Assembly (NCBI GenBank): GCA_903873185.1
Contig: CAIQNN010000009.1
Coordinates: forward strand, 1-34,724
Source: an uncultured Actinomycetes bacterium
GTDB taxonomy: Bacteria > Actinomycetota > Actinomycetes > Nanopelagicales > Nanopelagicaceae
DNA: 34,724 bases
Reading direction: 5' to 3'
The translations under genes and the position numbers were made by a program. The notes beneath the pieces were generated by a model, which worked only from the letters and a program-made list of their open reading frames with translations, did no database searches and was not told where the DNA came from. Shown piece by piece: positions 8,940-30,188 of the stretch. Position 1 is the stretch's first letter. The number at the start of each line of letters is the position of its first letter.

Positions 8940-8968
8940 ATTCTATTTCTTGGTTGCTAAACCACCAA
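8940..8968 (-). promoter_or_regulatory. Promoter of the PIG-V-like gene, leaderless
   Basis: On the minus strand TTGGTG (8968-8963) is followed by a 17-nt spacer and TAGAAT (8945-8940), then 7 nt to the ATG. The -35 box lies in the last codons and stop of the E2 gene. Confidence 0.6.
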
Positions 8969-10186: not shown

Positions 10187-10187
10187 G

Positions 10188-12500: not shown

Positions 12501-12512
12501 ATTGGATCCAAT
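12501..12512. promoter_or_regulatory. Perfect 12-bp palindrome, likely operator of the FCD/GntR regulator
   Basis: ATTGGATCCAAT reads the same on both strands. It lies 20 nt before the VOC start, in the region shared by the divergent VOC-GntR and E1-E2 operons. From memory, the same 12-mer is the core of the operator of Caulobacter VanR, also a GntR regulator with an FCD-type domain. The gene for a regulator of this family is second in the operon downstream, so autoregulation is expected. Confidence 0.7.
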
Positions 12513-12531
12513 ACCAACAAAGGAGCGCACA

Positions 12532-14088: not shown

Positions 14089-15117
14089 ATGAGCGCCAAA
14101 CGAATCGCGGTATTGGGTACCGGAGCTAATGGCGCCGCAATCGGCGCTGACCTAACTCGCGCTGGTGAAGATGTGGTCTTTATCGAACAGTGGCCCTCGC
14201 ATGTTGAAGCTATGCGAAAAAATGGGATCCAGGTGAATATGCCTGGTGAATCCCTGACCACCAAAGTCCAAACCCTCCACCTTTGTGAAGTAGCCACTCT
14301 GACCAAGAAGTTCGATGTCGTGTTGATGCTGATGAAAGCTTACGACTCCGGTTGGGCTGCCCAATTTATCGAGCCGCACTTGAAATCAAATGGCTTATTG
14401 GTTGGCGTCCAAAATGGCATGAGTGTTGATGCAATTGCTAGCGCAGTTGGAATTCACCGAACTATGGGAGCAGTAATTGAAATTACTTCGGCCATGTTTG
14501 AGCCTGGAGTTGTTGAACGGCATTCGAACCATTCCCGATCATGGTTCGCTGTGGGCAGTCTCGATAATTCAACCGTTGGCAGAGAGGAAGAGATTGCCTC
14601 CTTGCTTCGGTATAGCGGCGCTGTCGATATCGTTTCAAATATTCGCGCAACGAAATGGATGAAAATCGTAAGTAATGCCACAACATTGGTTCCCACAGCA
14701 ATTCTTGGAATTCCGATGCGTGAAGCTGTCTTAATCCCGGCCATGCACCAATTCATGATCAAATGTGGTCAAGAAGCGCTGGCTGCCACCTTGTTAGAGG
14801 GAAATCCGATTCTCCCAATTTTTGGACTCACCGCTAAAGCGGTTGAATCAGAAGAGCAAGTTGTAGAAACGCTCCTCGACACTTTAATGAGTGGATTTGT
14901 ACTACCAAATTCCACAACAACAATCCTGCAGGATTGGCAAAAATCCAGGCACAGTGAGGTCAATGAGATAAATGGGCTGGTAATCCAAACCCGAAATAAA
15001 CACGGTTTGGCATCGCCAGCTAATTCGAAGGTTCTCGAATTAGCTCAGCGGATCGAGAGCCATGAATTAACTCCCTCGATGGAAAACTTAACTTCGTTAA
15101 TTTCGGTTATGGAATAA
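14089..15117 (+). CDS. Ketopantoate reductase (ApbA/PanE)-family oxidoreductase
   Basis: 342 residues. An N-terminal Rossmann fold has AVLGTGANGAAIGADL (the GxGxxG at 10-15). QNG at 108-110 supplies the conserved Asn, and the C-terminal helical domain opens with KWMKIVSNATTL, where Lys192 is the expected catalytic Lys and Asn196 the substrate-binding Asn. Classical members reduce 2-dehydropantoate with NADPH, but many homologues in catabolic clusters act on other 2-oxo or 2-hydroxy acids. At 342 residues it is longer than typical PanE (about 300), and the oxidoreductase neighbours argue for a catabolic role. GAGAGAAG just before ATG at 14089 supports the start. The 3' end overlaps the opposing PRISE gene by 11 nt. 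Confidence 0.88.
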   Translation: MSAKRIAVLGTGANGAAIGADLTRAGEDVVFIEQWPSHVEAMRKNGIQVNMPGESLTTKVQTLHLCEVATLTKKFDVVLMLMKAYDSGWAAQFIEPHLKSNGLLVGVQNGMSVDAIASAVGIHRTMGAVIEITSAMFEPGVVERHSNHSRSWFAVGSLDNSTVGREEEIASLLRYSGAVDIVSNIRATKWMKIVSNATTLVPTAILGIPMREAVLIPAMHQFMIKCGQEALAATLLEGNPILPIFGLTAKAVESEEQVVETLLDTLMSGFVLPNSTTTILQDWQKSRHSEVNEINGLVIQTRNKHGLASPANSKVLELAQRIESHELTPSMENLTSLISVME

Positions 15118-16168
15118 TTTTTTCCGCTCGAAGTTGTGCGAAGAGTTCCGTGAATGAATCCGGCGTTACTTGTACTTCTCTAAATCCAGCTTTGCGAGAC
15201 TTACCCATGTCGGCGAAAGTTTCAACTTGACGGCCAAGGTCGGCATCGGAATGCCACCAAGATGCGATTTCAGATGCTTTGTATGGCGCTAAATTATATT
15301 TGGCAACGATCTTCTCCCAGATTTGATCGGCATCTTTCATTCTTGGCTCTAGTGGAGAAATTTCAGCTGGGTATCCTGGATCTGCAATTTCAAAGAAATC
15401 AGCGAGTAACTTCCAAAGTTGACGCCAACGAAATACATCGCCATTAACGGTATTAAACGCTTCATTTTTCGCGCTAGGCGAAGTTGCTGACCAAACCGCA
15501 TGACGGGCCAACAGTCTGGCATCCGTTACATCGGTAACGCCGTTGTACTGCTCTTTTGAACCTGGAAAAATAAATGGCGCGCCGGTCTCTTTACAGATTG
15601 AGGCATATACGGCGAGGGTGACTCCCATATTCATTGCATTTCCTAGCGCCCATCCAATCATCGTGTGTGGGCGATGAACCGACCACGAATATCCTTGCTC
15701 GGCGGCAGCTTTAAAAAGAATATCCTCTTGGTTGTAATAGAAGTTTTCAATTGGCAAACGCGCTTGGCTCTCTTTAAATGGCGTCTCCATTGGAGTTGCG
15801 GCATAGGATTCGAATGGTCCGAGGTAATGCTTAAGGCCGGTGATTAGAACTGCATGCTCCATGCTCTTCATAACCTTCAGGGCATCAACAGTGTTTTGAA
15901 TCATGGCACTGTTCACTTTTATATTTTCAGCCTCGGTCGCTTGACGCGACCAGGTACAGAAGAAGAGGTGAGTGATATCGAGCCCAACAATCGCAGCGCT
16001 GACGCTTGCTGGATCAAGAACGTCGCCATAAATATGGTTTACCCCAGGAATTGAGATTCCAGCCTTTCGCGAGAGTCCGTAAACAGTGAAGCCCGCTTTT
16101 AGTAATTCATGGGCAATGTTGTTTCCCGTGATTCCCGTAACGCCAACTACTAGCGCGTTCTTAGCCAT
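15107..16168 (-). CDS. PRISE-type extended SDR (progesterone 5-beta-reductase/iridoid-synthase-like)
   Basis: 353 residues. The N-terminal Rossmann motif is ALVVGVTGITGNNIAHELL (5-23). Instead of the classical YxxxK, the protein has TGLKHYLGPFE (110-120, Lys113) and ENFYYNQEDILF (141-152, Tyr144/145), the Lys and Tyr signature of the PRISE family, plus SVHRPHTMIGW. Plant members reduce the C=C bond of enones such as progesterone and 8-oxogeranial with NADPH; bacterial members are little studied. The role here is probably reduction or oxidation of an enone/ketone in a catabolic route, which is inference. ATG at 16168 has GAGGAG 6 nt upstream. It is divergent from the SDR gene and overlaps the end of the ketopantoate-reductase-like gene. 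Confidence 0.87.
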   Translation of the reverse strand: MAKNALVVGVTGITGNNIAHELLKAGFTVYGLSRKAGISIPGVNHIYGDVLDPASVSAAIVGLDITHLFFCTWSRQATEAENIKVNSAMIQNTVDALKVMKSMEHAVLITGLKHYLGPFESYAATPMETPFKESQARLPIENFYYNQEDILFKAAAEQGYSWSVHRPHTMIGWALGNAMNMGVTLAVYASICKETGAPFIFPGSKEQYNGVTDVTDARLLARHAVWSATSPSAKNEAFNTVNGDVFRWRQLWKLLADFFEIADPGYPAEISPLEPRMKDADQIWEKIVAKYNLAPYKASEIASWWHSDADLGRQVETFADMGKSRKAGFREVQVTPDSFTELFAQLRAEKIIP

Positions 16169-16309: not shown

Positions 16310-16355
16310 TTGCTCAGAGTTAACTTCTTCATCGGTTCCATCAAAGGGGATGACC

Positions 16356-17138
16356 ATGGGCAGAGTTTCTGGGAAAGCAATTATCGTCACTGGCTCTGGC
16401 AGTGGCATCGGCAAGGGCTTCGTCAAAATTCTTGCCGCCGAAGGCGCAAAAGTCGGCGTAATGGATCTAAATAGGTCCGCGGCCGATGCTGTTGTTGCCG
16501 AAATTGCTGCCTCCGGTGGCCAGGCGATCGCGCTGACTGGCGATGTCTCCAAGCGGGATCAGGTTCAAGCTGCCTTCAAAACCTTTGTTGAGTGGGCTGG
16601 CCGACTAGATGTTCTCTTTAACAACGCCGGATTCAACAAGCCAATGCCACTTCTGGAAGTGACAGAAGAAAATTGGAACGCCATCATGAACGTTAACGGC
16701 CTGGGAGTTTTGATCTGCACGCAAGAAGGTGCCAAATATATGATTCCTAATAAGAGTGGAAAGATTATTAATACCGCCTCGATCGCCGGCAGACAGGGCT
16801 ATCCAGCATTCACCCCTTACTGCGCTAGCAAATTCGCTGTTAATGCCATTACCCAAGCAACTGCCCGCGAACTCGCAAAATATGACATTACTTGTAACTC
16901 ATTTGCCCCCGGGGTTGTAGATACGCCGCTTTGGACTGCGCTCAACCAAGATCTCTTCGATATCGGAGAGGCGAAAGAGCCAGATTCGGCGATGAATGAA
17001 TTTGGCGCGGGAATCCTGAAAGGTCGAGCCGCCCTGCCGGAAGACCTCCAAGGCATGGCGCTTTTTCTGGCCTCTAAGGATTCCGATTACATGACCGGGC
17101 AGACGATCATGATTGATGGCGGCATGGTTTTAGTTTAA
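16356..17138 (+). CDS. Classical short-chain dehydrogenase/reductase
   Basis: 260 residues from ATG at 16356. I prefer this to ATG at 16350 because AAAGGGG lies at a usable distance only from the second. The nucleotide-binding motif TGSGSGIG is at 12-19, Asp in VMDLNR (about 37) suggests NAD(H) preference, NNAG is at 89-92, and the catalytic Ser142, Tyr155 and Lys159 (YCASK) are present. The C-terminus SDYMTGQTIMIDGGMVLV is typical. It oxidises an alcohol or reduces a ketone; the substrate is unknown, with sugar/polyol dehydrogenases as the nearest type. It is the first of four plus-strand oxidoreductase genes; a 76-nt gap separates it from the next. Confidence 0.93.
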   Translation: MGRVSGKAIIVTGSGSGIGKGFVKILAAEGAKVGVMDLNRSAADAVVAEIAASGGQAIALTGDVSKRDQVQAAFKTFVEWAGRLDVLFNNAGFNKPMPLLEVTEENWNAIMNVNGLGVLICTQEGAKYMIPNKSGKIINTASIAGRQGYPAFTPYCASKFAVNAITQATARELAKYDITCNSFAPGVVDTPLWTALNQDLFDIGEAKEPDSAMNEFGAGILKGRAALPEDLQGMALFLASKDSDYMTGQTIMIDGGMVLV

Positions 17139-17214
17139 AAAAGTGACCTATTTGTACGTTATATCCAGATATTTTCCCAATTAATCCTGCAACTTCGACC
17201 GAATGAGAGTGAAA

Positions 17215-18192
17215 ATGAAAGCCCTTCAGTTCACCAGCCCAGGCGCCATGGCCGTCAATGAAATCGCAATTCCGCAAATTGCCGATGACGAGGTTTTGCT
17301 CGCCAGCCGCTCCGTTGGAATCTGCCATTCTGATATCGAACTGCTCGAAGGTCGCTACATAATTCCCTTCGAATATCCAGTCATCCCAGGACACGAATGG
17401 TCGGCTGAAGTAATCGAAATTGGCAAGAAGGTCAACAAGTTCAAAGTTGGCGACCGTGTCGTTGGTGAATGCGTAATTGGCCAGGAACATTTTGGTTTCA
17501 GTATCAGCGGTGCAATGGCTGAATTCTTCGTTGCAAAACAAGATTGGTTGCACAAGCTTCCAGATAATGTCTCTTACACGCAAGGCGCACTAGTTGAACC
17601 TTTCAGTTGCGGTTACTACGCCACTGTTCGTGCCGACAATATGGATGCCAGCGACACCGTAATGGTCTTCGGTGCTGGCCCTATCGGCCTTGGGGTTATC
17701 GCCGCCTCGGCAGCGAAAGGCGCCCGCGTTATTGTTGCCGAACCATCCGAAGCCCGAGCGAAAATTGCACTCGGCCTTGGTGCTGAAGTTGTTGTCGATC
17801 CAACCAAAACAGATTTCTTGGCTCAGGTCAGTGAGGTAACCAAGGGTGCCGGCGCATCAGTTGTTATTGATGCCAGTGGAAAACCACAAGCTATGGCAAG
17901 TACTTTCGAAGTTGCCGGTTTTCGCGCTCGAATAGTAATTATTGGAATCAGCGTCGGTGGCGAAGCGCCAGCTAAGTTGGGATTGATCCAATCTAAGGAA
18001 CTGCAAGTTCGAGGAATTATTGGCTCTCCTGGGGTTTGGCCAGAAACCATTCGCTTTATAGCCCGTACCGGAGTTGATCTCTCATCGATCGTGACATCTT
18101 CATTTGATCTTGCCGATGCTGATAAGGCCTACCAAGCGGTCTATAACGATAAAAGTCAGATCAAAGTTCACGTCACAAACAAGGCCTCTTAA
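17215..18192 (+). CDS. Zinc-type MDR alcohol/polyol dehydrogenase lacking the structural-zinc lobe
   Basis: 325 residues from ATG at 17215, chosen over ATG at 17203 because GAGAG precedes it at ribosome-site distance and MKALQF is the normal MDR start. Catalytic-zinc residues are present: Cys37 (GICHSD), His60-Glu61 (PGHEW) and Glu128 (LVEPFSCG). GAGPIG at 153-158 is the NAD(P) motif. The four-Cys structural-zinc loop of typical members is replaced by GECVIGQEHFGFSISG, so this protein binds one zinc at most. The short length agrees. It fits sorbitol/threonine-dehydrogenase-like enzymes of sugar catabolism. Its stop overlaps the start of the next MDR gene by 1 nt (TAATG), implying coupled translation and perhaps a shared pathway. 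Confidence 0.92.
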   Translation: MKALQFTSPGAMAVNEIAIPQIADDEVLLASRSVGICHSDIELLEGRYIIPFEYPVIPGHEWSAEVIEIGKKVNKFKVGDRVVGECVIGQEHFGFSISGAMAEFFVAKQDWLHKLPDNVSYTQGALVEPFSCGYYATVRADNMDASDTVMVFGAGPIGLGVIAASAAKGARVIVAEPSEARAKIALGLGAEVVVDPTKTDFLAQVSEVTKGAGASVVIDASGKPQAMASTFEVAGFRARIVIIGISVGGEAPAKLGLIQSKELQVRGIIGSPGVWPETIRFIARTGVDLSSIVTSSFDLADADKAYQAVYNDKSQIKVHVTNKAS

Positions 18193-19250
18193 TGTCAACA
18201 ATGCGCGCGGCTGTTTTGTATGACTTGCACGATCTGCGAGTTGAAGATGTACAAAAACCAACTTACGGTGAGAACGATGTGCTGATTGAAGTTTCTTACA
18301 ACGGTCTTTGTGGAACTGACGCTAGCGAATTTGCAAAGGGTCAGATCATGGTTCCGCTAAAGAGTCCACATCCCAACAGCAAACATGTTGGGGCAACAAT
18401 TTTGGGCCACGAATTCATTGGTACCGTCGTTGAAGCTGGAGTAAATGCGAAAGCGCTTATTGGTAAGCGCGTAGCTTGCGGTGCTGGAGTTGCTTGCGGT
18501 CAATGTAAACGTTGCAAAGAAGGTCGTACCAACCTCTGTGCCCATTACTACACACTGGGATTGAGTCTTCACGGTGGCTTAGCAGAGTTTGTGGCAGCTC
18601 CTGCCAATATATGTATCCCCATTCCAGATGATATTTCGGATGAACACGCTGCTCTTGCTCAACCACTAGCTGTCGGCATTCATGGAGTGCGCCGTTCCGG
18701 TGTTCAAAAAGGTGACACTGTGATTGTTCTTGGTGTCGGCGCAATTGGATCTTTCGTATGCGTTGCCCTTCAAGAATACGGCGTAGAAGTTATCGCCGTG
18801 GATATCGATGCCAATCGACTCAAGACCGCAGAACAACTTGGCGCAGGTAAAACAATTTTAATTGATCGTGATATTACGCCGGCTGATATCAAGGCGCTGT
18901 ATCCGGCGCAAGCCGATGTGGTATTTGAAACGTCAGGCGCACCCGGTGGACTAGCTCGAGCTCTGGGCCTCACCAAAATGGGCGGCACCTTGATGATGAT
19001 GGGTCTCAATAAGACGCCACAAGAACTCATTTTTGCCGATGCGGTTTTGCGTGAGGTAACTATGCAGACCACGGTCGCACATGTGTGCGCCGATGACATT
19101 CCAGATGCTCTGGATTTACTCAGAAGCGGAACTGTTGCCGAGCTTCTTACCGAAAAGATTATTCAACTGGAAAACGTTGCTGAAGCGTTTGAAGAGTTAG
19201 CTGCCGGCAAAGCAACCGGAAAGATTTTGGTAACCCCTAAACATGTATAA
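18192..19250 (+). CDS. Zinc-type MDR dehydrogenase (butanediol/sorbitol dehydrogenase-like)
   Basis: 352 residues. The catalytic-zinc site has Cys40 (GLCGTDASEF) and His73-Glu74 (LGHEF), while the Glu expected in ALxEPLAVG is Gln157 (LAQPLAVGIH). The structural-zinc cysteines are present at 102, 105, 108 and 116 (ACGQCKRCKEG...C). GVGAIG marks the NAD-binding fold (about 181-186). It oxidises a secondary alcohol of a diol or polyol. It is translationally coupled to the upstream MDR gene and overlaps the following dehydrogenase gene by 8 nt, so three genes act as one operon. The Gln substitution may affect zinc geometry. Confidence 0.92.
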   Translation: MSTMRAAVLYDLHDLRVEDVQKPTYGENDVLIEVSYNGLCGTDASEFAKGQIMVPLKSPHPNSKHVGATILGHEFIGTVVEAGVNAKALIGKRVACGAGVACGQCKRCKEGRTNLCAHYYTLGLSLHGGLAEFVAAPANICIPIPDDISDEHAALAQPLAVGIHGVRRSGVQKGDTVIVLGVGAIGSFVCVALQEYGVEVIAVDIDANRLKTAEQLGAGKTILIDRDITPADIKALYPAQADVVFETSGAPGGLARALGLTKMGGTLMMMGLNKTPQELIFADAVLREVTMQTTVAHVCADDIPDALDLLRSGTVAELLTEKIIQLENVAEAFEELAAGKATGKILVTPKHV

Positions 19251-20115
19251 AGTTGCAATCTTAGGAACTGGAAAAATGGGTTCCGCCATGGCCCGCGAAT
19301 TAGTTAAAGCCGACGTTCGCCTCTCACTGTGGAATCGAACTAAAGCGAGCGCTGATTCACTTTCTGATTCGCTTGAAAGTAATCTGGTCACGGTTGCCAC
19401 AACGGTCTCGGATGCCTTAAGGGATGCCGACATTGCAATTTGCACCTTTACTGATGGCAAGGTCACTCAATCTGTTCTGCTTTCCGATCCATCGATCCTT
19501 GAAAAAGCGGCGAGCAACTTAGTAATTGTTGACATGGGAACCAGTGGGGTTGAAGCAGCTAAGGCGCTTTCTTATTCAATTTCAACGACTGGCCTTCGAT
19601 TCGTTGATGCTCCAGTTTCTGGGAGCACGGCCACCATCGCCGCCCATCAACTCCTCGTGATGGCCAGCGGCTCAGTAGATGGAATTGAAGTGATCCGACC
19701 AATTCTGGAAATATTCGCAAAAAAGGTTGTCTACCTCGGCGAAGCTGGTGCCGGGCAAGCCATGAAATTAGCGGTGAATTTGATCGTGCACAGCCTCAAT
19801 GCCGCGGTCGGGGAAGCCCTAGCTTTAACAACAAAGTTTGGGATTGCGCCCGAGGAGGCCTATGACGTCCTCGAGGAGAGTGTGGTGGCAGCCCCATTTG
19901 TTAAATACAAGCGTTCAGCCTTCCTTGACGCATCCACCCCTGTTGCCATGCGAATTGATACCGTCGTCAAAGATATGGGCTTGATTCGAAACTTTGGCAT
20001 GAGCAGTGGAGTCTCACTCACCGCCGCCTGGGCGGTGGAGGATCTCTATCGTCAAGCCTGTGCTGCCGGATTTGAGGCTCAAGATATGGCCAACCTCTTC
20101 CGTTTTCTGCGCTAA
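19243..20115 (+). CDS. 3-hydroxyisobutyrate dehydrogenase-family oxidoreductase
   Basis: 290 residues, the family's normal length. The N-terminal Rossmann motif is VAILGTGKMGSAMAREL (4-20), with NRT at 31-33 favouring NADP(H). The substrate region reads VDAPVSGSTA (121-130), and the catalytic Lys175 and Asn179 lie in GAGQAMKLAVNL. Family members oxidise 3-hydroxyisobutyrate, tartronate semialdehyde or related beta-hydroxyacids, or reduce small aldehydes. The canonical DxST is DMGTSG here, which leaves the substrate open. The start overlaps the upstream MDR gene by 8 nt. No strong terminator follows; the next gene begins with its own promoter. Confidence 0.92.
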   Translation: MYKVAILGTGKMGSAMARELVKADVRLSLWNRTKASADSLSDSLESNLVTVATTVSDALRDADIAICTFTDGKVTQSVLLSDPSILEKAASNLVIVDMGTSGVEAAKALSYSISTTGLRFVDAPVSGSTATIAAHQLLVMASGSVDGIEVIRPILEIFAKKVVYLGEAGAGQAMKLAVNLIVHSLNAAVGEALALTTKFGIAPEEAYDVLEESVVAAPFVKYKRSAFLDASTPVAMRIDTVVKDMGLIRNFGMSSGVSLTAAWAVEDLYRQACAAGFEAQDMANLFRFLR

Positions 20116-20168: not shown

Positions 20169-20201
20169 CCCTTGTTAACACTGTGTAGCCATGTGTAAAG
20201 T
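20169..20201 (+). promoter_or_regulatory. Promoter of the ABC-transporter operon with shared operator motif
   Basis: TTGTTA (20172-20177), an 18-nt spacer and TAAAGT (20196-20201) form the promoter. The -35 is embedded in CCCTTGTTAACACTG (20169-20183). A 14/15 match lies at 26718-26732, and the reverse complement (CAGTGTTAACAAGGG) matches the -10 region of the M24 promoter at 27531-27545. A repressor at this site would hide the -35. Confidence 0.6.
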
Positions 20202-20233: not shown

Positions 20234-21256
20234 ATGAGCTCTGTAGATCGCCGCGATGTCAAGAAATCCTCTCGCATTCAGATCTCTCGTGGAATGCGTA
20301 CGGTTTTAATTGGCCTTGCCGCTTTATACCTAGCAAGCGCTCTAATAGCTCCAACAAGTGTGAGTCGAATCGCTCAGATGGGAATGCTTCCTTTTGCGGC
20401 CGCATTGGCAATCGTTGGTTTAGGGCAGACCATGGTTATTCAACAAGGCGGCATTGATCTATCAGTCGCCGGCTCCGTCTCACTTGCTGTTGTGATCGTT
20501 ACATGGGGACCTGATCGTCATGATAATCGATTGATCCCAGCAGTCTTGGCTGCATTTGGCGCTGCGATCATCACTGGACTTATAAATGGCTTTCTAATTA
20601 CTCGGACCAAACTAAATTCAATCGTTGCCACGCTTGGAACTAATGCCATTCTCTACGGCGTAATGATGGGGCTATCCGGTGGCAGCCCGCGACGCACGAC
20701 AGAACGTCTTTCAAACTTTACAAACAACAAAATTTTCGGATTACCACATTCGATTTGGTTCGGTGTGATTGTCACGATCATCGTGACGGTAATTCTGAAG
20801 CGCACCGTTTTCGGTCGCCGTTTTGAAGCGGTCGGCGCAAATGCTCGCGCCGCTCGGGCCGCCGGATTAAAAGTCGGCCGTTACCAGATGAGCGCCTATG
20901 TCAACGCTCAAATTCTCTATTGCATCGCCGGAATAATTTTGGGTGGCGTAATTTCGCAACCTACGGCATATCAAGGCGACGATTATGTCTTGCCTTCCGT
21001 TGCTGTCGTAGTTCTCGGCGGTACTTCACTTTTAGGTGGTCGTGGCTTTCCTGCAGCATCGGCAATATCAGCGCTATTTCTTAAGCAACTAGATATGTTC
21101 GTACTTTCGCTTGGCGTGCCATATGGCGTTCGCACACTAGTAATTTCACTGAGTTTGATGATTGGCATCGCAATCTATGCCGTCAATTGGAGTTCGATTC
21201 GCCAAAAGCTGATGCGAAATTCCAAATCGAGAACTCTGAGTTCCGCAAGCGCGTAA
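20234..21256 (+). CDS. ABC sugar-type importer permease (RbsC family)
   Basis: 340 residues with about 9 hydrophobic segments, the size of RbsC/XylH permeases of the CUT2 group. GLGQTMVIQQGGIDLSVAG (about 62-80) is the family's strongest signature. The cytoplasmic coupling loop reads FEAVGANARAARAAGLKVGR (about 196-215), and GGTSLLGGRGFP lies near 265. It should pair with the permease half of the downstream fused ATPase protein to form a heterodimeric channel. AAAGGCAG upstream supports ATG at 20234. It is the first gene of the operon permease, binding protein, ATPase-permease fusion and dehydrogenase. Substrate unknown; five- or six-carbon sugars or polyols are typical of the family. Confidence 0.93.
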   Translation: MSSVDRRDVKKSSRIQISRGMRTVLIGLAALYLASALIAPTSVSRIAQMGMLPFAAALAIVGLGQTMVIQQGGIDLSVAGSVSLAVVIVTWGPDRHDNRLIPAVLAAFGAAIITGLINGFLITRTKLNSIVATLGTNAILYGVMMGLSGGSPRRTTERLSNFTNNKIFGLPHSIWFGVIVTIIVTVILKRTVFGRRFEAVGANARAARAAGLKVGRYQMSAYVNAQILYCIAGIILGGVISQPTAYQGDDYVLPSVAVVVLGGTSLLGGRGFPAASAISALFLKQLDMFVLSLGVPYGVRTLVISLSLMIGIAIYAVNWSSIRQKLMRNSKSRTLSSASA

Positions 21257-21263
21257 ATAGATT

Positions 21264-21328: not shown

Positions 21329-22417
21329 TTGATACGGTTTAAATCTCGAGCCGCTGTCGTGGCCAGTAGCATTGGTTTAGTTGCGGTTATGGCCGCATCT
21401 ACTCTTACTGCAACCGCCAGCAGTGCTGCTGGGCTACCTTCTTGGTGCGGCCCTAAGAAAATCACAATGGGATTCACCGATGGTTTTGGTGGAAACTCAT
21501 GGCGTCTAGTAACAACCGCCGCTGTTCGCGAAGAAGTTAAGCTCTGTCCAAATGTAACCAAGCTTTACTACGCAGATGGCCAAGGCAAGACCGACAAGGC
21601 AATTTCAGATATCAAGGGAATGGTTGCTAAGGGCGTAAAGGCTCTCGTTGTATTCCCAGATTCTGGACAAGCAATGCTTCCTGCACTTCGATCTGCTTAC
21701 AAAGCAGGCGTTGTAACCGTCCCTTACCGTGTGTGGGCTGGCGGCGTAGCTGGTAAGGATTACAACATCTTTATCGGTTCCGACTTCGTACTTGCCGGCA
21801 AGCTTTGGGGTAATTGGATCAAGAAGAACCTTCCAAACGGTGGAAACATCCTTTCACTCTCCGGCCCAGCTGGTAACAGCCAAGGCGTCGATGAGGCCAA
21901 GGGTCTTCAAAGCGTTCTTGGAAGCGATCCAAAGTACAAATTCATTGGAACACAACCATACGAAGTAACCAACTGGGATCCAGGCAAGGCACAGGAAGTT
22001 TTGACTGCTGCTATTGCTAAGTATCCAAACATTGATGTAATCACAACCGACTTCGGTCCATCAATTGTTTCAGCTCTTCAAGCCGCTGTTTCATCTGGTT
22101 GGAAAGTACCTGCAATTGCCGGTTCTGACGGAAACGTCCTCGGTTGCTTCTACGCAGACAACAAGGCTACCCAGCCAAACTTCAAAATGATGACTGTCTC
22201 TACACAGAACGACCACTCCCGTTTGGCAACAGACTGGGCGATCGCTCTAGCAACTGGTGGAAAGGTTCCTGCACAAAAGGCCTACCCATCAACAGCCTTC
22301 GAAGATTCCGTCTCTGGCAAGCCATCACCTGTCCAGTGCCGCAAGGATCTTCCTGGCGATGTCTACCTCTCAGCAAAAATGAGTGGTGCAGCACAAGCTA
22401 AGTTGAAGACCAACTAA
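21329..22417 (+). CDS. Periplasmic-type sugar-binding protein of the ABC importer
   Basis: 362 residues. A secretion signal (MIRFKSRAAVV then a hydrophobic run to about residue 25, ending ATASSAAG) is followed by a Periplasmic_binding_4-type domain: KKITMGFTDGFGGNSW at the start, IKGMVAKGVKALVVFP near 97-112 and NIDVITTDFGPSIVSALQAA near 235. No lipobox Cys is seen, so it may be released or held by another means, unusual for a monoderm binding protein. The start is TTG at 21329, supported by AAAGGAAG ending 5 nt before it; no ATG fits. Codon use is more uniform than in the neighbours, as expected for an abundant protein. It lies between the permease and the ATPase fusion gene and is followed by a strong hairpin. 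Confidence 0.93.
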   Translation: MIRFKSRAAVVASSIGLVAVMAASTLTATASSAAGLPSWCGPKKITMGFTDGFGGNSWRLVTTAAVREEVKLCPNVTKLYYADGQGKTDKAISDIKGMVAKGVKALVVFPDSGQAMLPALRSAYKAGVVTVPYRVWAGGVAGKDYNIFIGSDFVLAGKLWGNWIKKNLPNGGNILSLSGPAGNSQGVDEAKGLQSVLGSDPKYKFIGTQPYEVTNWDPGKAQEVLTAAIAKYPNIDVITTDFGPSIVSALQAAVSSGWKVPAIAGSDGNVLGCFYADNKATQPNFKMMTVSTQNDHSRLATDWAIALATGGKVPAQKAYPSTAFEDSVSGKPSPVQCRKDLPGDVYLSAKMSGAAQAKLKTN

Positions 22418-22430
22418 TAATAAATCGGAG

Positions 22431-22464: not shown

Positions 22465-22520
22465 TTTCCAATTTCCAAGTACCTGCATAATTGGTTAAAC
22501 ATAAGTATCAAATCAACGGA

Positions 22521-25004
22521 ATGGTGACCTCTGTGTCTAGCTCAGCTCTTCTCCTCTCAAACATCTCTAAGAATTTTTCTGGCGTGGCAGCATTAACTGA
22601 TGTCTCGTTTGAAGTTAATCCCGGAGAAGTTCATGCGCTATTGGGAGAAAACGGCGCTGGTAAATCAACGTTAATGAATGTGGCATCTGGAACTCTTAAA
22701 GCCGATGGCGGGCTGATCGAAATCATGGGAACCCAAATTGCTAATATCACGCCTGCGTTAGCTACTGAGCTTGGTCTAGCAATCGTCCATCAGCATCCAG
22801 CGGTATTACCGGATTTAACGATCGCCGAAAATATTATGATCTCGGTTCCTGAAAGTCTTTTGATGTCTGAAGGATCAACCGAAAAAACAATGCGCAAGAT
22901 CCTTGATGAATTTGGATTTACTGCCAGTCTCCGCGATCGCGTTGAGACCCTAACGGTCGCCCAGCAACACTTATTAGATTTAGCTAAAGCTTTTGCCATC
23001 AACCCTAAGATCCTAATTTTGGATGAACCAACCGCACCTTTAGGGCAAGAATCGGTCGAAATTCTCTTTAAGAAAGTACATGCCATCGCCCAGGCTGGTA
23101 CAGCTGTTATTTACATTACCCACCGCTTGGCGGAAGTTCGTGAGATCGCGAATCGAGTCACGATTCTTCGCGATGGAAAAGGTCGCGGAACTTCTAATGT
23201 CAGCGAAATATCTGACGATGAAATCATGACCAAGATCGTTGGACGGCAATTAGAGTCGACCTTCCCGCCAAAGCATGATGGCTCAATCAACGACGGCGAA
23301 TTTGTAAAGATTGAAAACCTCTCCAGCAATGATTTCCACGAAGTTTCCTTTGCCGCCTCCAAAGGTGAAATCATCGGGATTTCCGGTGTTGTAGGAAATG
23401 GTCAAAGCCAATTGATGAGGTCCTTGGTCGGTCTTGATTCCCACGCCGGAAAAATTATCGTCAATGGTAAAGAGATCGGCAACAAAGAGTTACTTCTAAA
23501 GACCGCCTACCTTCCTGCAGATCGCCATGGTGAGGGCCTCATGATGACACTCTCAGTTCGGGAAAATGCATCAGTCAGCGCGCTAGGAAAATTCAGCCAA
23601 GGGTTATTCATCAGCCGCAAACGTGAAGACAATGTGGTTTTGGCATCGCTAAGAGAGCTGGAAGTTAAAGCTCCGTCAATGGACTCACCGGTTTCGGCAC
23701 TTTCAGGCGGTAATCAGCAGAAGATTGTTATGTCTCGTTCGCTGCTTTCAGAGCCGATCATGATCATCGCAGATGAGCCAACTCAAGGTGTAGACGTGGG
23801 AGCTCGCGCTGAGATCTACAAGATTTTACGCAATGTTGCCAACAGCGGTATTCCCGTAATTGTTAACTCCTCTGATACCAAAGAGCTCGAGGGTCTATGC
23901 GATCGAGTTTTGGTGATGTCCCGGGGACACATTGTTCAATCGCTCGAGGGCGATCAAGTAACCGAAGAGAGAATGGTAGCTGCCGCGATTCAATCAACTG
24001 CGCTGAAGCGTCAGGAAATTGATGATGCCGTTGCCGCTTCTCAAAAGCGGACAATATCTAAAGTACTTCAATCTGATTTTGTACCACCCATAGTTCTAAC
24101 TGGAATGATTTTGGCGTTGGCGCTATTTATCTTCTCTAAGAATCACCTCTATTTCGGCTCCTACAACATAAACGCGGTGTTGGGCTTGGGCACCGGTCTT
24201 GGTTTCATTGCCTTGGGTCAAACTATTGTTTTGATGACCGGCGGAATTGATTTATCAGTTGGTCCGGCATCGGGAGTATTGCTTGTAGTCGCGTCGTTCT
24301 TTGTTAATGATGGCAAGTCTTTTTGGATAATTGCCATTGGATTCTTACTAATTCCAATTGTTGCAACAGTTATCGGCACTGCTAATAGTGCGTTGATTCG
24401 ATATGCGAAATTCACACCAGTCGCCGGAACGCTCACCGTCTACATCGCATTAATCGGTATTGGATTCCTACTTCGGCCCGCACCGGGTGGCTATTTGAAC
24501 GCCTCTGTCACTGACTTCCTGTTACGAAAGGTGGGTCCGCTGCCTGATGCTTTTATCGTTCTGGCAATTGCAGCGGTACTTCTTGAAATCGCACTTCGTA
24601 AAACTAAGTGGGGAATTCGCTTACGCGCCTCGGGTTCAAATGAAGAGTCGGCCCGCCGACTCGGAGTCAATATCAATCGAACGGTTTTTGGCGCTTATAT
24701 AGCATCCGCACTTTTTGCTGGAGTTGGCGCCATCATATTTATGGGACTGATTGGTGTGGGTGACCCAGCTCAAGGAACTTCATACACGTTGCAGTCCATC
24801 ACAGCAGTTGTACTTGGCGGAACAAGCCTGCTGGGTGGTCGCGGTTCCTTTGTTGGATCGCTGTTAGGTTCAGTCCTGATGGTGCAAGTTTTGAACGCCT
24901 GCGTATTTCTTAACCTTTCGCAGACTTGGCAGTACTTGTTCCAAGGTCTTTTAATCGTAATTGCAGCACTCTCTTACACATTAACTCGCAAAACCAGGAG
25001 GTAA
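22521..25004 (+). CDS. Fused ABC ATPase (RbsA-type, two NBDs) and permease (RbsC-type)
   Basis: About 827 residues from ATG at 22521; a TTG at 22491 and GTG at 22533 are alternatives. The first nucleotide-binding domain has GENGAGKS (42-49) and ILILDEPTAP, with the degenerate signature VAQQHLLDLA usual in RbsA. The second has a degenerate Walker A (VVGNGQSQ), a full LSGGNQQKIVMSRSLL signature and IMIIADEPTQGVD. From about residue 525 a full RbsC-like permease follows with no stop: GLGFIALGQTIVLMTGGIDLSVG, RASGSNEESARRLGVNI and GGTSLLGGRG. In most organisms these are two proteins. The fusion, with the separate permease upstream, implies one tethered and one free permease per transporter. Two nt separate its stop from the dehydrogenase gene. 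Confidence 0.93.
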   Translation: MVTSVSSSALLLSNISKNFSGVAALTDVSFEVNPGEVHALLGENGAGKSTLMNVASGTLKADGGLIEIMGTQIANITPALATELGLAIVHQHPAVLPDLTIAENIMISVPESLLMSEGSTEKTMRKILDEFGFTASLRDRVETLTVAQQHLLDLAKAFAINPKILILDEPTAPLGQESVEILFKKVHAIAQAGTAVIYITHRLAEVREIANRVTILRDGKGRGTSNVSEISDDEIMTKIVGRQLESTFPPKHDGSINDGEFVKIENLSSNDFHEVSFAASKGEIIGISGVVGNGQSQLMRSLVGLDSHAGKIIVNGKEIGNKELLLKTAYLPADRHGEGLMMTLSVRENASVSALGKFSQGLFISRKREDNVVLASLRELEVKAPSMDSPVSALSGGNQQKIVMSRSLLSEPIMIIADEPTQGVDVGARAEIYKILRNVANSGIPVIVNSSDTKELEGLCDRVLVMSRGHIVQSLEGDQVTEERMVAAAIQSTALKRQEIDDAVAASQKRTISKVLQSDFVPPIVLTGMILALALFIFSKNHLYFGSYNINAVLGLGTGLGFIALGQTIVLMTGGIDLSVGPASGVLLVVASFFVNDGKSFWIIAIGFLLIPIVATVIGTANSALIRYAKFTPVAGTLTVYIALIGIGFLLRPAPGGYLNASVTDFLLRKVGPLPDAFIVLAIAAVLLEIALRKTKWGIRLRASGSNEESARRLGVNINRTVFGAYIASALFAGVGAIIFMGLIGVGDPAQGTSYTLQSITAVVLGGTSLLGGRGSFVGSLLGSVLMVQVLNACVFLNLSQTWQYLFQGLLIVIAALSYTLTRKTRR

Positions 25005-25006: not shown

Positions 25007-26071
25007 ATGAAAGCGGCTCGTTTCCATGGACAAAAAGATATTCGGATTGAAGATGTCCCACGCCCCGGCGCTCCGCTTCCTGATGAAGTTGTAGTAGAAC
25101 CGCTCTTCTGCGGTATCTGCGGTACTGATTTACACGAATATTCCGTCGGTGCAATCGTTACACCTACCAAACCACACCCACTTACTGGTGTAACTAATCC
25201 ACAAATTCTTGGCCATGAATTCTCGGCTCGCGTTATTGAAATTGGTAGAGATGTTCGCGATGTTGCTGTCGGCGATCGCGTTTCGATAATGCCAGCCATC
25301 GTTTGTGGTCGGTGTATCCCTTGTCGAACCGGGCGTGGGCACCTCTGTGAAGTATTTGCTTGTACTGGCTTATCTGCACCAACCGGTGGCTTAGGCGAGA
25401 TCGCAGTTCTTAAGGAATACCAGGTTGCAAAGCTACCTGACAGCATCTCCGATATTGCTGGCGCGGTTGTAGAACCTGCATGTGTAGCGGCTTACGGAAT
25501 TGATCGAGTAGGAATTTGGGGCGGGGATGTTGTCCTGGTGACTGGTGCCGGACCAATTGGTGCACTTAGCGCAATGTATGCCTGGGCGCTTGGAGCCTCT
25601 CAAGTAATCATCTCCGATCCAAACCCACACCGTTCCGCTTTCGCAAAAACTCTCGATGTCGGTCCAGTTCTAAATCCAATGGATCCAGGCTTTGACGATC
25701 AAATTCGTGAAATCACCCAAGGACGGGGAGTTGATGTCGGCGTGGAATGTTCTGGCTCAACACCTGGCCTCACAGCTCAAATGAATCACATCCGTCGAAG
25801 TGGAAAGATCGTTCAAACCGGATTGCATACCAAGCCGGCAACCATCGATGCAATGCGCCTTTCCGAGCGCGATATCTCCTATGTTGGAAGTTGGTGCTAC
25901 TTGCTAACCGATTGGCCACGAATAATTCGACTGGCCGCTGCTGGCAAATACCCAATTGAAAAAGTGGTCTCATCTACTATCGATATCGATGATGTCGTTA
26001 CGAAGGGTTTTGATGTTCTAATCGATCCAAAGGGCGATCAGATGAAGGTCTTGGTCCAAGTAAATAAGTAG
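25007..26071 (+). CDS. Zinc-type MDR dehydrogenase, (R,R)-butanediol/sorbitol dehydrogenase-like
   Basis: 354 residues from ATG at 25007, preceded by AGGAGG at ideal distance; the frame is open further upstream but would overlap the ABC gene. Catalytic zinc residues Cys38 (CGICGTDLHEY), His70-Glu71 (ILGHEFSA) and Glu156 (VVEPACVAAYG) and structural cysteines 100, 103, 106 and 114 are all present. The HPLTGV segment before LGHEF is typical of 2,3-butanediol dehydrogenases. GAGPIG at about 180-185 is the NAD motif. It ends the ABC operon, so it probably oxidises the imported compound or its first product. A bidirectional terminator follows. Confidence 0.93.
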   Translation: MKAARFHGQKDIRIEDVPRPGAPLPDEVVVEPLFCGICGTDLHEYSVGAIVTPTKPHPLTGVTNPQILGHEFSARVIEIGRDVRDVAVGDRVSIMPAIVCGRCIPCRTGRGHLCEVFACTGLSAPTGGLGEIAVLKEYQVAKLPDSISDIAGAVVEPACVAAYGIDRVGIWGGDVVLVTGAGPIGALSAMYAWALGASQVIISDPNPHRSAFAKTLDVGPVLNPMDPGFDDQIREITQGRGVDVGVECSGSTPGLTAQMNHIRRSGKIVQTGLHTKPATIDAMRLSERDISYVGSWCYLLTDWPRIIRLAAAGKYPIEKVVSSTIDIDDVVTKGFDVLIDPKGDQMKVLVQVNK

Positions 26072-26123: not shown

Positions 26124-26648
26124 TTAATAGTCAAAAGACTCTAGGGCCGGCCGATTCTTTAAGTAGAGCGCAGAGGCTGCTACTCGTTCCGATTTTAGGT
26201 AGTAGGCCACTTCAACTAGTTCTAGCGCTAAGCCATCTGGGTCGCTGAAATAGCACCAGCGCCAGCCAGCCAATGGTCCTTCGTCAACCACATTTACATC
26301 GCTATAGAACTTGACGCCTTTGGCTTCGAGTTCGGCCTTGGTCTTATGAATATCATCAACGTTGAAACAGACGTGCGCTGCCCCAAGATGATTGTTTGGA
26401 ACCAGTTTGTTCTCAGCCGGTAAGTTGCCATATTCAATTAATTCCAAAGTACTGGTGTCATCCACCCACATGGAAACTTGGCGCAGTGTGGCAGCGGGAA
26501 CCCCAACCCCTTTAGCTAAATCTGGCCCCTCGAACCAGCCAGTCGGTTCATTGGCAAATTGCAGACCCAAAATGTCATGGTAGAAGTAAATTGAACGGTC
26601 CAAGTTTTTACAGACCAAACCAACGTGATGGACAAAATTTAACTTCAT
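26124..26648 (-). CDS. VOC-superfamily metalloenzyme (glyoxalase/dioxygenase fold)
   Basis: 174 residues. MKLNFVHHVGLVCKNLDRS opens the first module. Ligand positions are His8, Glu69 (TLELIEYGN), His92 (AAHVCFNVDD) and Glu143 (LALELVEV), a complete metal site. It resembles methylmalonyl-CoA epimerase/lactoylglutathione-lyase-type members, but the reaction is not identifiable. GGAGAT 6 nt before ATG at 26648 supports the start. It is transcribed divergently from the XRE-cupin regulator, and its likely promoter (TTGATT, 17 nt, TTTACA) has the shared motif at the -10. It is therefore probably part of the same regulon as the ABC operon and the M24-eboE pair. Confidence 0.88.
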   Translation of the reverse strand: MKLNFVHHVGLVCKNLDRSIYFYHDILGLQFANEPTGWFEGPDLAKGVGVPAATLRQVSMWVDDTSTLELIEYGNLPAENKLVPNNHLGAAHVCFNVDDIHKTKAELEAKGVKFYSDVNVVDEGPLAGWRWCYFSDPDGLALELVEVAYYLKSERVAASALYLKNRPALESFDY

Positions 26649-26706: not shown

Positions 26707-26732
26707 GGGCTGTACAGCCCTTGTAAACACTG
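26707..26732. promoter_or_regulatory. Palindrome and shared operator motif between VOC and XRE-cupin genes
   Basis: A perfect 14-bp palindrome GGGCTGTACAGCCC (26707-26720) is joined to CCCTTGTAAACACTG (26718-26732), a 14/15 copy of the site upstream of the ABC operon. On the minus strand the motif covers a TTTACA -10 box (26726-26721) 17 nt from TTGATT, a plausible VOC promoter. The position suits both autoregulation of the XRE gene and control of VOC. Confidence 0.6.
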
Positions 26733-26821: not shown

Positions 26822-27475
26822 ATGAGAGATCCCGTCGCGTATTTAGGACCACGTCTAAAAGAGATCCGCTTAAAAACTGGCTTATCCCTTCGAGAGGTTG
26901 CGCGACAACTAGAAGTCTCTCCTTCCTTCGTTTCACAAATTGAAAATGGAAAATCGCAACCTTCTGTTGCCACCCTTTACGCCTTGGCGAAACTGCTCTC
27001 CGTACCCGTCGATGTTCTCTTCGAATCACAATGGGGCGGTAGTAAACCAATCGCAGATACTGAAGACAGTGAGCAAGTAAGTCGCGATAACTTCGACACT
27101 CCGACTGACGCCTGGGACGAGTCAAAGGCGCGGATTTCATCAGTTAATCCTCATAACCGAAGTGTCATAATCATGGACTCTGGTGTCCGGTGGGAGCGCT
27201 TGGCGGCCACTGCAGAGCAAGGCGTTAACTTCATGGAGATTGTTTATGAGCCAGGTTCTGAATCAAATTCCAGCGGCGAGATGATGATTCACTCCGGATA
27301 TGAATACGGTTACGCCCTCGAAGGTGAAGTTGAAGTCACTATTGGGGATTTAGTTTTGACACTCTCAAAGGGCCATTCAATTGGCTTTGATTCCTCGATC
27401 CCGCATATGTTCCGAAATAACGGCCTGCTGCCCTTCCATGGCATCTGGTTTGTAAACGGCGCCCAAAACCACTGA
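26822..27475 (+). CDS. XRE-family regulator with C-terminal cupin domain
   Basis: 217 residues. The helix-turn-helix covers about 9-65 (LKEIRLKTGLSLREVARQLE, then VSPSFVSQIENGKSQPSVAT). A linker of about 60 residues follows, then a cupin_2 domain at about 140-212 (VYEPGSESNSSGEMMIHSGYEYGYALEGEVEV in part, GHSIGFDSSIPHMFRN). In this family the cupin binds a small ligand and the protein controls nearby transport and catabolic genes. Of the usual cupin metal ligands, His157, Glu161 and His195 are in suitable places. AGAGAGGG precedes ATG at 26822. The gene sits centrally between all the genes that carry the shared upstream motif, so it is the prime candidate for their regulator. Confidence 0.94.
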   Translation: MRDPVAYLGPRLKEIRLKTGLSLREVARQLEVSPSFVSQIENGKSQPSVATLYALAKLLSVPVDVLFESQWGGSKPIADTEDSEQVSRDNFDTPTDAWDESKARISSVNPHNRSVIIMDSGVRWERLAATAEQGVNFMEIVYEPGSESNSSGEMMIHSGYEYGYALEGEVEVTIGDLVLTLSKGHSIGFDSSIPHMFRNNGLLPFHGIWFVNGAQNH

Positions 27476-27512: not shown

Positions 27513-27545
27513 TTGACACCCCCTGATGGCTAGTGTTAACTAGGA
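27513..27545 (+). promoter_or_regulatory. Promoter of the M24-eboE pair with shared operator motif at the -10
   Basis: TTGACA (27513-27518), a 17-nt spacer and TTAACT (27536-27541) form a near-consensus promoter. The -10 lies inside TAGTGTTAACTAGGA (27531-27545), which matches the reverse complement of the ABC-operon site at 12 of 15 positions. Binding of a repressor would cover the -10. Confidence 0.65.
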
Positions 27546-27583
27546 GAGAACATCATCCGAAACTAACTTAACGGGAGTGAACA

Positions 27584-28963
27584 ATGGCGATCCCTACCTA
27601 TGGGACTACAGGCGTCGATTGGGAAAATCGGCTCGATACCGAGCGATTGCGTACCGAGCGCTTGGCACGCCTCAAGGCGGAGCTAGAAAAATCCAGCCTA
27701 GGCTCGCTACTTACCTTTGATTTCCACAATATCCGTTATATGACCTCGACCCATATCGGTACCTGGGCGATGGACAAGATGATTCGCTTCTCGATTCTTC
27801 CTCGCGGCGGCGAGCCAGTTCTTTGGGATTTTGGCTCCGCTGCAAAACACCACACCTTGCATACCCCTTGGTTGGATAAGGCACATGCCGACGCGAGCGC
27901 AAATGGCCATGCTCCGCACCACGATGCCGGTCCACTTATTGGTTCACGTGCGGGAATTTCAACGCTTCGCGGTGCAATCAATCCTGCAGCTGGGCAAGCC
28001 GAAGCCGTCGCAGACAAAATTTATGAAGTACTCAAGATTTATGGCTTAGAGAATGAGCCGCTCGGCGTAGACATCATCGAACCGCCAGTTATGTTCGCCT
28101 TGCAAGCAAAAGGCATTCGCGTCGTTGATGGCCAACAAGTCTTTTTGGCTGCTCGCCGAATCAAAACCAAAGATGAACTAACGCTTCTTACATCAGCTGC
28201 ATCGATGGTTGATGCCGCTTACGACCAACTTTATGAATTCTTGCGCCCAGGCGTGAAGGAAAATGAATGCGTTGGGTTGGTAAGCAAGATTCTTTACGAC
28301 ATGGGTTCTGAGCATGTCGAAGGTGTTAATGCAATATCTGGCGAACGTTGCTCACCACATCCACATGTATTTAGTGATCGCGTATTGCGCCCTGGCGATC
28401 CAGCATTTTTTGACATCTTGCACAGTTACATGGGTTACCGAACCTGTTACTACCGAACGTTTGCCATTGGTAGCGCCTCACCTGCACAGCGCGATGCTTA
28501 CACAATCTGCCGCGAATATATGGACAAGGCGATTGCGTTAGTAAAGCCGGGCGCTACCACGGCAGATATCGTAAAAGTCTGGCCTACTGCCCAAGAGTTT
28601 GGCTTCGAAAATGAAGAAGCAGCTTTTGCGTTGCAGTACGGTCACGGCGTCGGACTTTCAATCTGGGAACGACCAATCTTTAGCCGAATGATTTCCCTTG
28701 ATCATCCCGAGGTTCTCGAAGAGGGCATGGTCTTTGCGCTAGAGACTTACTGGCCAGCAAAAGATGGTTGGGGAGCAGCTCGAATTGAAGAAGAGATCGT
28801 AGTAACTGCAACTGGTTGTGAAGTTATTACAAAGTTCCCAGCAGAAGAATTGTTAGTTGCTGGGCAGCGTTATTTCACAACAGGGGGCTGGTTAAACACG
28901 ACTCGCGATTCCCAGTCTCATCTAAATACTTCCACCTTCAATCACATCGGCAATGGCAAATAA
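27584..28963 (+). CDS. M24-family (aminopeptidase P/creatinase/DddP fold) protein with altered metal site
   Basis: 459 residues. A creatinase-like N-terminal domain (about 20-190; LTFDFHNIRYMTS, LAARRIKTKDELTLL) precedes the pita-bread domain (about 200-420). Of the five usual M24 metal ligands, Asp277 (FFDILHSYMGY), His354 (GHGVGLS), Glu387 (ALETYW) and Glu402 (RIEEEIVV) are present, but the second Asp is Cys288 (GYRTCYYRTF). The start and end resemble DMSP lyase DddP and creatinase-like proteins more than Xaa-Pro dipeptidases, so it need not be a peptidase; it may cleave a C-N or C-S bond. GGGAG 8-9 nt before ATG at 27584 supports the start. It is the first gene of a pair with the EboE-like gene, 4 nt apart. 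Confidence 0.9.
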   Translation: MAIPTYGTTGVDWENRLDTERLRTERLARLKAELEKSSLGSLLTFDFHNIRYMTSTHIGTWAMDKMIRFSILPRGGEPVLWDFGSAAKHHTLHTPWLDKAHADASANGHAPHHDAGPLIGSRAGISTLRGAINPAAGQAEAVADKIYEVLKIYGLENEPLGVDIIEPPVMFALQAKGIRVVDGQQVFLAARRIKTKDELTLLTSAASMVDAAYDQLYEFLRPGVKENECVGLVSKILYDMGSEHVEGVNAISGERCSPHPHVFSDRVLRPGDPAFFDILHSYMGYRTCYYRTFAIGSASPAQRDAYTICREYMDKAIALVKPGATTADIVKVWPTAQEFGFENEEAAFALQYGHGVGLSIWERPIFSRMISLDHPEVLEEGMVFALETYWPAKDGWGAARIEEEIVVTATGCEVITKFPAEELLVAGQRYFTTGGWLNTTRDSQSHLNTSTFNHIGNGK

Positions 28964-28967: not shown

Positions 28968-30188
28968 ATGGATTTAGGTAACGGCTACGGCCACCTGACT
29001 TACTCCACCCTGGTTCACCCTGGTGACACTTGGACTGACATGAAGACCAGTTTGATCACCTATTTGCCTGGTGTGAAAGCTAAATTCAGCCCTAATGCAC
29101 CTATGGGCGTCTCCCTTCGCTTAGCCAACGCTTCAGTTGAAGAGTTACTTGCTAAACCAGAAGAGCGACAGTGGCTCAAAGATTTTTTAATAAAGGAAGA
29201 ACTCTACGTTTACACCGTTAACGCCTTCCCTTATGGGCCGTTCAAGGGTCAAATAGTTAAAGCGGAGGTCTACGAACCAGATTGGACCACTGAAGCCCGA
29301 ACCCGCTACACCATGAATGTGGCAGACATCTTGGCTGAGGTAACAGGCTTGGACGTGGAGCCAACAATTCAAACTGCGCCGCTGGCATTTCGCCCAAAGG
29401 TGACCACGCCAGAATATGAAGCGGCATTTAATGAGAATATCTATCGAGTTATTGCGCACTTAATGACTTTGGAAAAGAAGACTGGCCACCGAGTAAAGCT
29501 AGCGCTAGAGCCCGAGCCATTCTGCTTCCTTGAAACCATCCCAGAAACTGTTACCTATTTTCAGGAAAAGATTTATAGCTTGGAAGCGGCAGAACGAATC
29601 TCTAAACTTTCTGGCCAACCGTTAGCTGAAGTATTTAGTGCAACTCGTCGCTACCTTGGGGTTGTTTTAGATATCTGCCATCAATCAGTTCAATTCGAAG
29701 ATATTGCCGATGATATAAATCAACTTTCAAAAGCTGGTATTCCAATTTTTAAACTTCAAGAAGCAGCAGCATTGTTAGTTGAGAATGTGACCCCGGAAAT
29801 CGTTGAAGAGCTAAAGAAATATACGGGAACCATTTATCTTAGCCAAACAACCGAACTTCGAAACGGCGAGATTACACGATTCTTGAATTTAGAGGATGCG
29901 ATCAAAGCGTGGGAGGCCGATCCCGGCCCACGCGAGTGGCGAACTCACTTCCACGTTCCGGTCTTCCTAAAAGATCTTGGACCGTTTCAAACCACCAGAG
30001 GTGGAATCGACGCAGCGCTCAAAGTGCATGCAAAGACGCCGCTTTCGACCCATTTAGAGATTGAAACATATACCTGGGATGTATTGCCCGATCATTTGAA
30101 GACCGGTGACATTTCTGAATATGTGATTCGCGAATTGGAATATGTTCGCGATGAACTTTATCGTCAGGTTGATGCGCTGAAGAAATAG
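28968..30188 (+). CDS. eboE: EboE-like TIM-barrel protein (xylose-isomerase-like fold)
   Basis: 406 residues. The N-terminus GHLTYSTLVHPGDTW (8-22), the LYVYTVNAFPYGPFKG stretch (79-94) and VYEPDWTTEAR (101-111) match, from memory, the EboE proteins of the ebo metabolite-traffic operons of cyanobacteria, algae and other bacteria. The fold is that of sugar-phosphate isomerase/AP-endonuclease-2 TIM barrels. Possible metal ligands are Glu181/Glu183, Asp235 and His238 (VVLDICHQS), His327/His329 (THFHVPVF) and Glu364/Glu366 (HLEIETYTW). None of the other ebo genes (UbiA-like, TatD-like, EboA, EboF) is in the window. It is coupled to the M24 gene by a 4-nt gap without a ribosome site of its own, and a terminator follows. 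Role: probably isomerisation or cleavage of the imported compound. Confidence 0.85.
   Translation: MDLGNGYGHLTYSTLVHPGDTWTDMKTSLITYLPGVKAKFSPNAPMGVSLRLANASVEELLAKPEERQWLKDFLIKEELYVYTVNAFPYGPFKGQIVKAEVYEPDWTTEARTRYTMNVADILAEVTGLDVEPTIQTAPLAFRPKVTTPEYEAAFNENIYRVIAHLMTLEKKTGHRVKLALEPEPFCFLETIPETVTYFQEKIYSLEAAERISKLSGQPLAEVFSATRRYLGVVLDICHQSVQFEDIADDINQLSKAGIPIFKLQEAAALLVENVTPEIVEELKKYTGTIYLSQTTELRNGEITRFLNLEDAIKAWEADPGPREWRTHFHVPVFLKDLGPFQTTRGGIDAALKVHAKTPLSTHLEIETYTWDVLPDHLKTGDISEYVIRELEYVRDELYRQVDALKK

Follow-up and report, generated by a model that had tools for sequence, protein, structure and literature searches.

What does an EboE protein do when it stands outside an ebo operon? Cyanobacteria, Bacteroidota and some plastids are among the lineages in which EboE is conserved. 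Papers on the ebo genes (PMC5133447, PMC6282210) assign it no reaction; they describe it as a xylose isomerase-like (XI-like) protein from which no activity can be deduced, and treat it within operons, with dispersed ebo genes in some cases. The 34,724-nt stretch of DNA analysed here (the window: contig CAIQNN010000009.1 of assembly GCA_903873185.1, Nanopelagicaceae; its own genome is labelled G000) carries an ORF at 28968-30188 that the initial annotation took for an EboE-like protein apart from any ebo operon, perhaps marking a catabolic branch of the family.

The 406-aa product of this ORF (ATG start) matched the curated model NF035939 (TIM_EboE) over its whole length (391.4 bits, E 3.3e-117, model positions 1-379 of 379, curated cut-off 250), which bears out the proposed family identity. 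Because bit scores of the stand-alone group (about 381-430) and of ebo-operon EboEs (about 383-426) overlap, neither the equivalog rule nor any bit cut-off can separate the two, and NF035939 probably over-annotates the stand-alone clade, for which "metabolite traffic protein EboE" is a misleading name. Pfam returned no match to the window's EboE, an XI-like Pfam family was weakly touched by 22 of 62 EboE homologues, and sequence searches of solved structures, with the single sequence or a profile, yielded nothing for EboE. The 50 best Foldseek matches in the PDB to an AlphaFold2 model (62-row alignment; pLDDT 91, pTM 0.91) were sugar isomerases, epimerases and related XI-like barrels, including UlaE, Art22, IolI, the D-allulose and D-tagatose 3-epimerases, AtHYD, and xylose and rhamnose isomerase. 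In its predicted fold, EboE is thus an XI-like TIM barrel near UlaE, IolI and AtHYD.

Ten residues that could form the active site (E181, E183, D235, H238, K262, Q264, H327, H329, E364 and E366) are common to 62 stand-alone sequences and are also conserved in both groups of ebo-operon EboEs. Four of them (E183, D235, H238 and E366), which had been proposed at the outset as a metal site, are invariant in the 62 homologues and conserved in ebo-operon EboEs, making them a plausible ligand set on the strength of the alignment; E181, Q264, H327, H329 and E364 are conserved equally well. HHalign with an XI-like set of ten sequences paired E181 with the EPEP motif and D235/H238 with the DxxH motif, and a three-sequence XI set was uninformative. 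The third ligand position falls by alignment on Q264, which a second alignment places near the position of a UlaE His that binds the metal.

The genes around EboE in the window, with candidate control sites, are as follows.

8957..10219, minus strand: 2-oxoacid dehydrogenase E2
10188..12377, minus strand: 2-oxoacid dehydrogenase E1, alpha-beta fusion
12502..13059, plus strand: VOC-family protein VOC2, next to E1 in many loci
15107..16168, minus strand: PRISE-family reductase (PF22917; 264 bits to plant progesterone 5-beta-reductase)
16350..17138, plus strand: SDR dehydrogenase
17203..18192, plus strand: Zn-dependent dehydrogenase ADH1 (best NCBIfam match IolM, 190 bits, cut-off 450)
18192..19250, plus strand: Zn-dependent dehydrogenase ADH2
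19243..20115, plus strand: HIBADH-like beta-hydroxyacid dehydrogenase (PF03446, PF14833)
20169..20183, no strand: shared site CCCTTGTTAACACTG, upstream of the importer (2 window matches, 0.02 expected)
20234..21256, plus strand: ABC permease, ribose/arabinose type (PF02653)
21329..22417, plus strand: sugar-type binding protein (PF13407; YtfQ and ribose-binding protein in the PDB)
22491..25004, plus strand: ABC ATPase fused to permease, ribose/xylose type (PF00005 twice and PF02653)
25007..26071, plus strand: Zn-dependent dehydrogenase ADH3 (best NCBIfam match IolM, 206 bits, cut-off 450)
26124..26648, minus strand: VOC-family protein VOC1 (PF00903)
26718..26732, no strand: shared site CCCTTGTAAACACTG, between VOC1 and the regulator (2 window matches, 0.02 expected)
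26822..27475, plus strand: HTH-cupin regulator (HTH_3 and Cupin_2)
27534..27552, no strand: palindrome TGTTAACTAGGAGAGAACA, candidate operator/promoter element of M24-EboE, just downstream of a TTGACA box
27584..28963, plus strand: M24-fold protein (PF00557, 141 bits; DddP model 110.7 bits, cut-off 600)
28968..30188, plus strand: stand-alone EboE, XI-like TIM barrel (NF035939, 391.4 bits; AlphaFold pLDDT 91; Foldseek)

A gap of 4 nt separates the end of the M24 gene from EboE, and in the M24 product the second Asp metal ligand is replaced by Cys288, a Cys in all 37 homologues examined. On the other side, convergent with EboE, lies a cyanophycinase-like protein (30241-31053; 44.5 bits, below the 126.6 cut-off), and an Rfam search returned no match. 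The ribose-type ABC importer spans 20234-25004, and its last gene encodes two ATPase domains and a permease domain in a single 837-aa protein. ADH3 was listed as an ORF from 24926, with the ATG at 25007 the likelier start; both ADH1 and ADH3 fall below the cut-off of 450 of their best match, NF041097 (IolM, scyllo-inosose 3-dehydrogenase). The PRISE protein also scores highly to iridoid synthase, and PRISE-type reductases can function in synthesis. The window has two copies of the motif CCCTTGTWAACACTG, against 0.02 expected: one precedes the importer, and the other lies in the gap that separates VOC1 from the HTH-cupin regulator. The two are perhaps a shared operator. In the window alone the palindrome TGTTAACTAGGAGAGAACA is not significant (1 match against 1.03 expected, one mismatch allowed); its value as a candidate operator comes from its conservation, together with the TTGACA box, upstream of M24-EboE in close relatives.

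When 84,980 species, each represented by a single genome, were scanned, 451 relatives were confirmed, and the 80 best of them (57-91% identity) belong to Actinomycetota, Pseudomonadota and Acidobacteriota. Neighbours were counted in these 80 loci by tblastn with panel proteins, and the counts include distant family members. A Gfo/Idh or Zn-ADH enzyme was present in 67 of the 80 loci (a Gfo/Idh protein, GFO, in 24, adjacent to EboE in 18), a HIBADH-like dehydrogenase in 51 (adjacent in 35), an importer in 51, the HTH-cupin regulator in 35 (adjacent in 19), and 2-oxoacid dehydrogenase E1 and E2 in 27 and 26, respectively. M24 was found in 33 of the 80, mainly in Actinomycetota; the pairing of EboE with an M24-fold gene and a sugar-type importer, as initially described, holds in the window, but M24 is not a general partner on the scale of the dehydrogenases and importers. 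The common core in Pseudomonadota and Acidobacteriota is GFO-EboE-HIBADH, to which subsets of these loci add DoxX, SnoaL or a MetE-like protein, and other importers. Importer types differ by phylum (sugar-type ABC, TRAP-TAXI and MFS, with the galactonate type also in other phyla), so that an acid is a possible substrate, as are different substrates in different lineages. The GFO proteins have inositol 2-dehydrogenase as their best match (116-126 bits, below the cut-off of 355 of the IolG model TIGR04380), with levoglucosan dehydrogenase also among the matches, and one of them matches DgpA and scyllo-inositol dehydrogenase in the PDB. The MetE-like protein (Meth_synt_2) near EboE in Acidobacteriota and some Pseudomonadota (L039, L054, L062, L070, L072, L079, L080 and L083) is 72-85% identical between loci. 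Formaldehyde release, considered for the Fae/H4MPT-type genes beside one acidobacterial locus, was dropped, as Fae occurs in that locus only.

With dehydrogenases, importers and 2-oxoacid dehydrogenase recurring in three phyla, the stand-alone EboE is probably a catabolic enzyme; against this reading, a biosynthetic role has been described for the other members of the EboE family (PMC5133447, PMC6282210). Specifically, we favour, at a probability of roughly 0.6, a metal-dependent isomerase or lyase whose substrate is a keto-sugar or keto-cyclitol and which serves an oxidative route of catabolism not yet characterised, for which we infer the metal, substrate class, type of reaction, order of steps and products as follows. 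A sugar-like or cyclitol-like compound would be imported by the ribose-type ABC system, and NAD-dependent dehydrogenases would oxidise a hydroxyl to a ketone, a step that may fall here to the Zn-ADHs and the SDR and in Pseudomonadota and Acidobacteriota to the IolG-like Gfo/Idh enzyme adjoining EboE. EboE, with a divalent metal probably held by some of E181/E183, D235, Q264, H327/H329 and E364/E366, would then isomerise, dehydrate or beta-eliminate the keto intermediate, and the HIBADH-like and PRISE enzymes, followed by the 2-oxoacid dehydrogenase complex, would complete the oxidation. By analogy with the levoglucosan and glycoside pathways, in which a dehydrogenase makes a keto ring and a sugar-isomerase-like TIM barrel then carries out an elimination or hydration (PMC7676230, PMC10628242), isomerisation, dehydration or elimination of a keto-sugar or keto-cyclitol appears the most likely role. 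A cyclitol is favoured a little, since EboD has been proposed to be a sugar phosphate cyclase (PMC5133447) and inositol-3-phosphate synthase homologues occur with ebo genes.

The same type of pathway could instead be directed at a plant or microbial glycoside, with EboE as a 3-keto-glycoside eliminase or hydratase and the other genes degrading the aglycone. The likeness of the GFO partners to levoglucosan dehydrogenase and DgpA, the presence of AtHYD among the fold matches, and the PRISE, OYE and cupin proteins of some loci, which would suit an aglycone, all agree with such a substrate. However, the best family match of the GFO proteins is inositol 2-dehydrogenase, neither a DUF6379-like protein nor a second isomerase partner was seen adjoining EboE, and aglycone-type enzymes are missing from many loci, and we regard a glycoside as possible but unlikely.

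A different question is whether the protein is simply an ordinary EboE, left over or displaced from an ebo operon, that performs the same biosynthetic or traffic job with its partners elsewhere. It scores as an EboE equivalog, and some genomes are known to have their ebo genes dispersed (PMC5133447). However, tblastn with eboA, B, C, D and F queries from one authentic ebo operon found none of these genes in the window's cluster, in agreement with the initial reading that EboE is here without other ebo genes, and none around EboE in the best 80 of the 451 loci (stretches of up to 10 kb on each side, shorter at contig ends); the same queries did match in the ebo loci that were fetched. At the level of the genome (G000; 1.63 Mb in 65 contigs, 97.7% complete), where searches covered EboA, EboB and EboF, the EboA domain was absent (positive controls G043, G052 and G055 matched), EboF had no match (strong in both ebo-bearing controls, G043 and G055), and the sole match for EboB, in another ORF on another contig, was partial (20 bits, 36%), against strong matches in G043 and G055. 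The window's EboE is the single EboE of the genome; with neither a second copy nor EboA in G000, we found no normal operon elsewhere, and the placement of this EboE outside an ebo operon stands. Likewise, 42 of the 46 carrier genomes lack EboA, and in three of the four carriers that have it (G073, G078, G081 and G097) a second, divergent EboE accompanies the ebo genes: where both types are present, the ebo-type copy stays within a separate ebo locus.

Phylogeny argues against an ordinary EboE as well. In a tree of 60 rows without cyanobacterial EboEs (IQ-TREE, LG+C20, midpoint root), the 41 stand-alone proteins form one clade (100/100) apart from 18 ebo-operon EboEs; nine ABCDEF-type EboEs adjoin this clade, and nine actinobacterial ebo-type EboEs form another group with one Kribbella paralogue among them. 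This paralogue (L103, 9173-10198), a second EboE at 33% identity, lies in a genome without EboA, and its surroundings gave no match to eboA, B, C, D or F; it is a further ebo-free case outside the stand-alone clade. In nine actinobacterial-type ebo loci and that of Gemmatirosa (together L102, L104-L108, L111 and L114-L116), the ebo genes are accompanied by an inositol-3-phosphate synthase homologue and a sugar-isomerase-like protein, apparently in place of the cyclase EboD. Across all EboE groups 48 residues are conserved, the putative catalytic set included, and about ten positions are fixed differently between the stand-alone clade and ebo EboEs, among them S13 (Cys in ebo EboEs), L15 (Asn), A86 (Gly), K93 (His), Q135 (Ser), V233 (Cys), A266 (Ser) and N307 (Asp). 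Several of the switched positions lie at or near strands predicted in the AlphaFold2 model, and fixed switches around retained putative catalytic residues would fit a changed substrate. In comparison with close relatives, synonymous sites are saturated whereas pN is 0.06-0.13, which indicates strong purifying selection on the EboE gene. Among 396 genomes drawn from the phylum the stand-alone type was present in G000 only, pointing to sporadic occurrence. Cumulatively, these sequence comparisons indicate that stand-alone EboEs are a separate, ebo-free branch and not a lone oddity, and the suggestion of a catabolic branch gains support from the single clade and from neighbourhoods that recur across phyla; that this EboE is an ordinary ebo-operon member is very unlikely.

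Also very unlikely is a biosynthetic cluster in which EboE and the dehydrogenases would make a modified sugar or cyclitol as part of a product that is secreted or placed on the cell surface. Other members of the family are described as biosynthetic, and reductases such as PRISE are able to act in synthesis, but no exporter, transferase, kinase or ligase recurs, whereas importers, dehydrogenases and 2-oxoacid dehydrogenase do, and the adjoining regulator gene, together with the sites in common with the importer promoter, suggests that uptake is inducible.

The catabolic reading bears on the whole family. The stand-alone clade offers a way into the function of EboE proteins: its importer, its regulator and the named isolates that carry it (Kribbella, Cryobacterium, Paraburkholderia and Terrabacter) turn the question of EboE function into a growth assay, and the NCBI equivalog rule "metabolite traffic protein EboE" is seen to name proteins with a catabolic context. 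Text searches of the open-access literature found no paper on a catabolic EboE, and the main text of PMC5133447 and PMC6282210 makes no mention of inositol. More speculatively, and with rather low probability, EboE enzymes in general may act on keto-cyclitols, the stand-alone clade being the catabolic counterpart of ebo biosynthesis that would allow feeding, by an undescribed pathway, on a widespread cyclitol or cyclitol-derived natural product such as a microbial sunscreen or an ebo product.

Several known systems resemble parts of this locus. The M24 protein shares its fold with DddP and other M24 enzymes, and its D277, H354, E387 and E402 align with the prolidase metal ligands, but it has Cys288 in place of the second Asp ligand and scores 110.7 bits against the cut-off of 600 of the DddP model NF043017. 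Similarly, the IolG-IolE/IolI route of inositol catabolism combines a Gfo/Idh enzyme (the family whose members here are nearest IolG), a barrel near which the predicted EboE fold lies (IolI) and a sugar ABC importer; however, the GFO partners reach 116-126 bits against 355, EboE has no detectable sequence similarity to IolE or IolI, and no other iol gene was recognised. The levoglucosan and glycoside pathways (LgdA/LgdB1, AtOGE/AtHYD, DgpA) likewise have a Gfo/Idh enzyme adjoining a sugar-isomerase-like TIM barrel (PMC7676230, PMC10628242), but EboE has no detectable sequence relation to their proteins and is accompanied here by HIBADH-like and 2-oxoacid dehydrogenase partners. The ebo-operon EboE itself, known from scytonemin export in Nostoc punctiforme and from eustigmatophyte plastids, scores above the same family cut-off and shares 48 residues with the stand-alone proteins; unlike it, these proteins have no eboA-D or eboF nearby and form a clade of their own, set apart by about ten fixed switches and by neighbours of a catabolic type.
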